Below are positions 47,770-48,930 of a stretch of DNA of 64,000 bases, in pieces. The position numbers and the translations under genes were made by a program. Under the pieces are notes generated by a model. That model was not told where the DNA came from and searched no databases. It saw only the letters and a list, made by a program, of their open reading frames with translations. The stretch is from Ogataea parapolymorpha DL-1 (taxonomy: Eukaryota > Ascomycota > Pichiomycetes > Pichiales > Pichiaceae), in contig NC_027863.1 in NCBI RefSeq assembly GCF_000187245.1, positions 990,735-1,054,734 of the forward strand, given 5' to 3'. Position 1 is the first letter of the stretch. The number at the start of each line of letters is the position of its first letter.

Positions 47770-48930
47770 ATGTAGGTCATAATGGTTTTGATTAGATACA
47801 CTTAAGTTTTCGACGGACGGTCAGTCATTTTTGCTCTTCATATGATACAGCATTGCCGGTGCCCCTTTGTGGGCTGAGATTATACGGTCGGAACTTGATC
47901 TAGTTAATACTAGCGAAAAGAAAATGCACCTGTATTAGAACAATACTAATCTTTTAGGGCTCCATCTTCTATTGTCGCACCAACGAAAACAGTCTCTGAA
48001 CAGGCTACTTTGTCTTTGAAACAAAGAAACGTGTTCAATGCGGACTCTCCGGTTTCCAAGGCAGTGTCCGCTGTGTACGACTGGGACACCTTTAAGTTTG
48101 CTCCCATCAGAGAGTCTACGGTGTCTCGGGCTATGACAAGACGCTACTTTGCGGACTTGGATAAATATGCAGAGAGTGACATTGTCATTGTCGGAGCTGG
48201 TTCCGCTGGTTTGAGTGCTGCTTATGTTTTAGGTAAGGCTAGACCTGACCTAAAAATTGCAATCATCGAGGCCAATGTCGCTGTGGGAGGTGGTTGCTTC
48301 CTCGGAGGTCAACTCTTCTCAGCCATGGTTTTGAGAAAGCCAGCTGACTCATTCATCAGAGAGCTGGGTCTTGAGTACGAGGACGAAGGTGATTACATTG
48401 TTGTCAAACACGCAGCATTGTTCATCACTACCTTGTGTTCCAAGGCCTTGGCTTTGCCTAACGTCAAGCTTTTCAACGCTACCTGTGTTGAGGATTTGAT
48501 CACCAGAACTACTGATTCGGGTGAGACCAGAATTGCTGGTGTTGTTACCAACTGGACTTTGGTTTCCATGCACCACGACGATCAATCTTGTATGGATCCA
48601 AACACCATCAACTCCAAGGTTATCATCTCCTGTACTGGTCATGATGGTCCTATGGGTGCGTTCTGCGTCAAGAGACTGGCTGAGCTTGGTCTTTTGAAGA
48701 GAAACCACATGGGTTGTTTGGACATGAACCGTGCTGAGGATTCGATTGTCAAGAACACGAGAGAGGTTTTCCCTGGTCTTGTTTGTGCTGGTATGGAGCT
48801 GAGTGAATGCGACTCCCACAACAGGATGGGACCAACCTTTGGTGCTATGGTTCTTTCAGGTGTCAAAGCTGCAGAAGAGGCATTGAAGGTTTACGAACTA
48901 AGAAAGAAGCAGGACATCGAGTCGTACTAA
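47770..48930 (+). CDS. THI4: Thi4 thiazole synthase with riboswitch intron splitting the start codon
   Basis: Exon 1 supplies AT (47770-47771) and exon 2 (47958-48930) starts with G, making ATG GCT CCA and a 324-residue protein. The body is classic Thi4: [13 protein letters not shown], the dinucleotide-binding [29 protein letters not shown], and DQSCMDPN with the sacrificial cysteine (residue 212 here, Cys205 in Saccharomyces). Reaction: makes the thiazole half of thiamine from NAD and glycine, donating its own cysteine sulfur, so each molecule works once. No in-frame ATG precedes residue 61 in exon 2. The intron carries a TPP aptamer. Confidence 0.9.
47772..47957 (+). other. THI4 intron, 186 bases, containing the TPP aptamer
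   Basis: Donor GTAGGT at 47772, branch TACTAAT at 47944-47950, acceptor CTTTTAG ending at 47957. The donor fits the GTRNGT pattern of the other introns. It is the only donor that gives an in-frame ATG with exon 2. If it is retained, the ATG at 47770 is followed at once by TAG. Confidence 0.8.
47850..47927 (+). promoter_or_regulatory. TPP riboswitch (THI element) in the THI4 intron
   Basis: P1 is closed by GCATT (47850-47854) and AATGC (47923-47927). The pyrimidine-sensing core has GGTGCCC and GGGCTGAGA (CTGAGA at 47874-47879), with GCCC/GGGC forming P3 around a 6-base loop. The pyrophosphate-sensing arm reads GATCTAGTTAATACTAGCG at 47897-47915, with P5 CTAG/CTAG around TTAATA. These match the invariant positions of bacterial and fungal TPP aptamers, and the location in a thiamine gene supports it. 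It should sense thiamine pyrophosphate and control splicing. Confidence 0.93.

Follow-up and report, generated by a model that had tools for sequence, protein, structure and literature searches.

The window, a 64,000-nt stretch of the Ogataea parapolymorpha DL-1 genome, carries THI4 on its forward strand. The reading frame at 47959–48930 encodes Thi4, the thiazole synthase, with matches to both Pfam Thi4 (351.6 bits) and NCBIfam TIGR00292 (291.9 bits). THI4 is present as a single copy among the 8,874,589 bases and 7 contigs of the genome examined; the other of two matches scored only 21 bits over 38 residues. In the published Hansenula polymorpha DL-1 genome (PMC3866509), which has seven chromosomes, 457 genes (8.5%) contain introns. 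The Thi4 protein scores 96% against its O. haglerorum counterpart and, as printed, 100% against the O. polymorpha record P0002, yet at least one residue differs when the two sequences are read. Other genes in the window include those for an ammonium transporter (44318–45727), a glutathione S-transferase-like protein (49101–49733) and Peroxin-3 (50802–52175), as well as a tRNA-Arg with anticodon ACG (5947–6021). The divergently oriented neighbor of THI4 (46135–47442) lacks a Pfam match and is fast evolving: its product is 90% identical to an O. haglerorum protein and at most 38% to the other relatives listed, bar one value of 70% over 10% of the length. One of these relatives is named SET domain-containing protein 5, and in [Candida] arabinofermentans the same THI4–neighbor pair has consecutive locus names (5370, 5371).

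The first in-frame ATG of the 47959–48930 frame is found only at 48133, inside the protein. Removal of a 186-base intron at 47772–47957, as reconstructed from sequence, gives a continuous THI4 frame that runs to the normal stop. The intron has the donor GTAGGT, the branch-point sequence TACTAAT (47944–47950) and the acceptor TTTTAG. The yeast donor consensus is GTATGT, from which the THI4 donor differs by one base. The exon junctions (AT/GTAGGT...TTTTAG/GGCTCC) fall within the start codon itself. Exon 1 ends with its first two bases, AT (47770–47771), while exon 2 (47958–48930) supplies the last one, followed by 323 codons and a stop. Joining 47771 to 47958 produces ATG GCT CCA and a protein beginning MAPSSIV..., open to the stop at 48930. 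If the intron is retained, the same AT is completed by the first base of the donor and AUG is directly followed by UAG (47770–47775), a one-codon frame present only in the unspliced RNA. It is the first of four short frames starting in or at the intron, the others having 7, 11 and 4 codons and beginning at 47782, 47842 and 47924, respectively. An additional out-of-frame ATG at 48038, in exon 2, is common to spliced and unspliced RNA. It appears from this gene model that the intron cuts the THI4 start codon in two, so that the protein would be made only after splicing.

The same intron contains a TPP riboswitch aptamer. At gathering scores, an Rfam scan of the full window returned two matches, one tRNA and one TPP (RF00059). 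The latter lies on the + strand at 47845–47939 and covers the model over its full length, positions 1–105, with 62.3 bits (E = 7.9e-10) against a gathering score of 54.3 bits. Ten model positions are deleted in the alignment and correspond to one missing arm, which we take to be P3a. The core motifs are all in place: CTGAGA at 47874–47879, the P4/P5 arm (GAUC...GUUAAUAC...GCG) with GATCTAGTTAATACTAGCG at 47897–47915, and a P1 helix closed by 5 pairs between GCATT (47850–47854) and AATGC (47923–47927). An earlier note on this DNA had pointed out the same CTGAGA core, arm and 5-base-pair P1, claimed a complete TPP aptamer within a reconstructed THI4 intron and proposed a covariance search with the Rfam TPP model. 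The search bears out this claim, and the location within the intron is supported by the continuous THI4 frame together with the Pfam Thi4 match of exon 2. That this intron interrupts the start codon is a point the note does not mention. The placement, on the sense strand and in a reconstructed intron of a thiamine gene, is also that of fungal TPP riboswitches that control splicing. Given the RF00059 match, the intron and the Thi4 frame, the locus is best read as a yeast THI4 with an intronic TPP riboswitch, which we consider to be real and very likely functional.

A second TPP match in the genome (59 bits) resides in a 218-base intron (L002:1429–1646), and a genome-wide search at E up to 10, with scores computed for 49 of 362 first-look candidates, listed the same two places. 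The host gene belongs to the sodium:solute-symporter family (Pfam SSF, 34.1 bits). Several close relatives of its product are named urea transport proteins, and its exon 2 protein is 97% to a cluster named for O. polymorpha. These sequence matches fit DUR31, as the gene is named in PMC5997356. A public O. polymorpha protein, P0145, has 463 residues, as many as the exon-2 frame encodes by itself, and may lack exon 1. For O. polymorpha DUR31, Donovan et al. (2018, PMC5997356) describe a riboswitch intron that, like that of THI4, encloses the aptamer; it has one donor and one acceptor, and RT-PCR detected its full splicing only without thiamin. The DUR31-like intron follows 54 whole codons within the coding sequence and thus, unlike the THI4 intron, leaves the start codon untouched. 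In both genes, an in-frame stop comes directly after the donor: the spliced DUR31-like RNA encodes the full transporter, the unspliced one a product terminated close behind the donor (...ASG, then stop). Two further loci in the genome carry the NMT1 domain (THI5), at 248.7 and 27.3 bits; an Rfam scan of both (7317 bases) at E up to 1 gave no matches.

The existence of this sister intron bears on whether the THI4 aptamer might be a mere relic in a gene under transcription control only. Transcriptional control does occur for thiamine genes of Saccharomyces, where it involves Thi2/Thi3/Pdc2; the earlier note drew this contrast, and it is also discussed in PMC5997356. Predicted TPP aptamers of diatoms have been reported not to confer thiamine control (PMC9544697). 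A relic is nonetheless difficult to reconcile with a full-length, above-cut-off match that has its core motifs intact, or with the thiamin-responsive DUR31 intron of O. polymorpha, and we regard this explanation as very unlikely.

The gene model can be compared with the start of Thi4 in other species. Among the 120 homologs listed out of 2907, 69 begin with MAP (28), MSP (30) or MTP (11), and because such starts are frequent, a start at 47770 fits the family. We then read the N-termini of 45 Thi4 protein models, ten of which (P0040, P0058 and others) were taken from lower in the list to compare starts; the comparison with other species relies on protein models throughout. Eight models, six of them from Pichia kudriavzevii, share the core ASATTTTIAQ. 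They show seven different N-terminal stretches, all of which end before the same residue, and one model reads simply M/ASATTTT. For P. kudriavzevii, the models are consistent from codon 2 onward and discordant before it. The models of Komagataella kurtzmanii and [Candida] arabinofermentans read MRGIKAEIKR/APTAIE and MSNM/APASVQ, respectively. A join within ATG requires that the residue preceding it be codable by a triplet ending in G. This holds in all 18 rows compared (9 with the ASATTTT core and 9 others picked by hand, several rows representing one species), with the qualification that this residue is M in 6 of the 18 and that 13 of the 20 amino acids can be encoded by a codon ending in G anyway. 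The comparison lends support, short of proof, to a split start in the relatives. It left out seven models whose start falls within the shared part (P0007, P0025, P0026, P0027, P0030, P0033 and P0035), two very long ones that lack the yeast N-terminus (P0005 and P0006), models with variable N-termini (P0008, P0011, P0013, P0019, P0024 and P0029), and P0003 from O. haglerorum, which skips the MAP segment. A Thi4 protein search for the DNA of relatives in viral and genome contig collections retrieved no relatives. Taken as they stand, several public Pichiaceae models, which clash just before codon 2, suggest that the split start is more widespread and often misannotated.

The O. polymorpha record P0002 offers a different start, as it reads MIQHCR/APSSIV. 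Up to R, this corresponds to translation from 47842, inside the aptamer (47842–47877), while the P0003 model has its start in what is the promoter here (about 47650). Could the true Thi4 start lie within the aptamer, as this deposited prediction has it? Such a protein would need the donor GTGCCC and an exon 1 that takes in part of P1 and P2. It would also be at odds with the P. kudriavzevii models, concordant only from codon 2, and with the MAP, MSP or MTP starts of the listed relatives. We therefore hold a start within the aptamer to be extremely improbable. Both P0002 and P0003 appear to be misannotated at the N-terminus on account of the split start codon.

How would the split start be put to use? 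We are confident that, in this yeast of the Ogataea polymorpha group, splicing of the first THI4 intron is under the control of a genuine TPP riboswitch, with TPP leading to intron retention and loss of Thi4. The aptamer, the THI4 gene and the effects of splicing and retention on the frame can be read from the sequence. When TPP is scarce, the intron would be removed, AT and G would join into the start codon and Thi4 would be made. When TPP is plentiful, it would stabilize the aptamer and the intron would stay in. A ribosome on the retained RNA would then meet AUG with UAG as the very next codon, then the three other short intron frames, and Thi4 would not be made. In other words, TPP binding most likely blocks THI4 splicing and thereby deprives the RNA of its THI4 start codon. 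The direction of control is inferred by analogy: since thiamin blocks DUR31 splicing in O. polymorpha, THI4 is expected to respond in the same way.

Folding calculations are in part consistent with this scheme. Across all 28 choices of flanks, the free ensemble was more stable than the one with the aptamer enforced, by 7.1–13.9 kcal/mol; since the aptamer costs energy at every flank choice, the ligand would have work to do. Over the same flank choices, the bound fold often left the donor and the branch point no less accessible than the free fold, and the accessibility of donor, branch site and acceptor showed no consistent change between folds. The THI4 intron is no more stable than its shuffled versions (z 0.21; equal or greater stability in 176 of 300 shuffles), in contrast to the DUR31-like intron, which exceeds its shuffles in stability (z -2.8; 3 of 300).

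In the minimum-energy fold of the intron alone (-37.7 kcal/mol), the aptamer is broken and an upstream stretch, 47788–47814, is paired with the P4/P5 strand at 47887–47907; enforcing the aptamer in this fold costs 10.2 kcal/mol. This raises the possibility of a different mechanism, in which the aptamer selects between two donors, one at 47772 and the other at about 47820, as in Type I splicing of Neurospora NMT1. TPP would favor the downstream donor and short upstream frames would be kept in the mRNA. A candidate for the second donor does exist, the motif GTCAGT at 47820–47825 on the + strand, and it sits 3′ of two short frames. The ligand-free pairing is also stronger than expected, its -22.9 kcal/mol being reached by 9 of 1000 shuffles. 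However, 7 of 426 real-sequence controls reach that energy too, and P4/P5 gave the best result among four aptamer segments (the other three: 98, 684 and 772 of 1000 shuffles). The helix is also sensitive to flanks. Over the 28 choices, the probability of the outer pair 47792–47903 ranges from 0.01 to 1.0 and that of the inner pair 47805–47895 from 0.03 to 0.99; the outer part fades once the leader reaches 47745–47752, and with flanks 47745–48010 the helix is nearly gone (0.01–0.04 at the four pairs checked). No counterpart was found in the DUR31-like intron (506 of 1000 shuffles for P4/P5, 914 of 1000 for the whole aptamer), and O. polymorpha DUR31 is described as having a single donor (PMC5997356). 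Selection between two donors thus seems rather unlikely, and the predicted pairing of the upstream stretch with P4/P5 is best treated as a weakly supported lead.

The preferred reading, intron retention with loss of the start codon, can be placed among known systems. Fungal TPP riboswitches have been assigned to splicing types I–III plus a Type IV (Mukherjee et al. 2018, PMC5882874). In the Type I genes NMT1 and THI4 of N. crassa, the intron belongs to the 5′ UTR and is spliced from two donors (PMC5882874), whereas here the start codon is split and the second donor is a motif only. For the Type II gene NCU01977 of N. crassa, an aptamer strand is proposed to pair near the first donor (PMC5882874, PMC5997356), which resembles the candidate pairing in THI4, but over a separation of about 500 bases and with alternative donors, compared with a 186-base intron and a weakly supported pairing here. 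The closest precedents come from the Pichiaceae, for which Donovan et al. (PMC5997356) reported TPP riboswitches in THI4 introns, that is, in the same gene, RNA class, intron location and yeast family. In yeasts, a 2012 study of P. pastoris had already suggested TPP riboswitches as a possible cause of rising thiamine genes (PMC3547764). An intronic THI4 TPP riboswitch is therefore already known, in kind as well as in location, and the question in the earlier note of whether it had been described is answered in the affirmative at the family level. The exact split-start architecture is another matter, as we did not find it in print. The main text of PMC5997356 contains none of the terms "start codon", "ATG", "AUG" and "split", though its supplement may list the locus, and "start codon" is likewise absent from the main texts of PMC5882874 and PMC11683625. 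Exact-phrase literature searches for split start codons found none, which is weak evidence given such rigid phrases, and no paper among those listed revealed a split start in a THI4 TPP riboswitch by its title or the start of its abstract, in a search that mainly covered freely available papers. Thus, the architecture is missing from the main texts searched and may be listed in supplements. A comparable arrangement is found in Brettanomyces bruxellensis, where a legend (S3 Fig, PMC5997356) describes a riboswitch transcript without a protein-coding gene but with start–stop codons. There too, a TPP riboswitch intron lies beside a one-residue frame; in that poorly coding transcript the start–stop occurs in splice isoforms 1–3, while here it marks the unspliced THI4 RNA.

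We think it somewhat more probable than otherwise that across the Pichiaceae, and perhaps in Komagataella, the THI4 riboswitch intron lies inside the start codon, so that the very existence of a start codon would depend on the vitamin. The retained RNA would have an AUG–stop pair in that position, and this pair may hold up ribosomes or cause the RNA to decay. Because of such a split, many public THI4 N-termini would be wrong. In this industrial yeast lineage, unlike in Saccharomyces, thiamine synthesis is very likely under the control of a vitamin-sensing RNA, and the detail most worth following is the split start codon of THI4. If true, it would represent a very clean off switch, account for the erratic gene models on public record and make available a compact intron under thiamine control for work in Ogataea.
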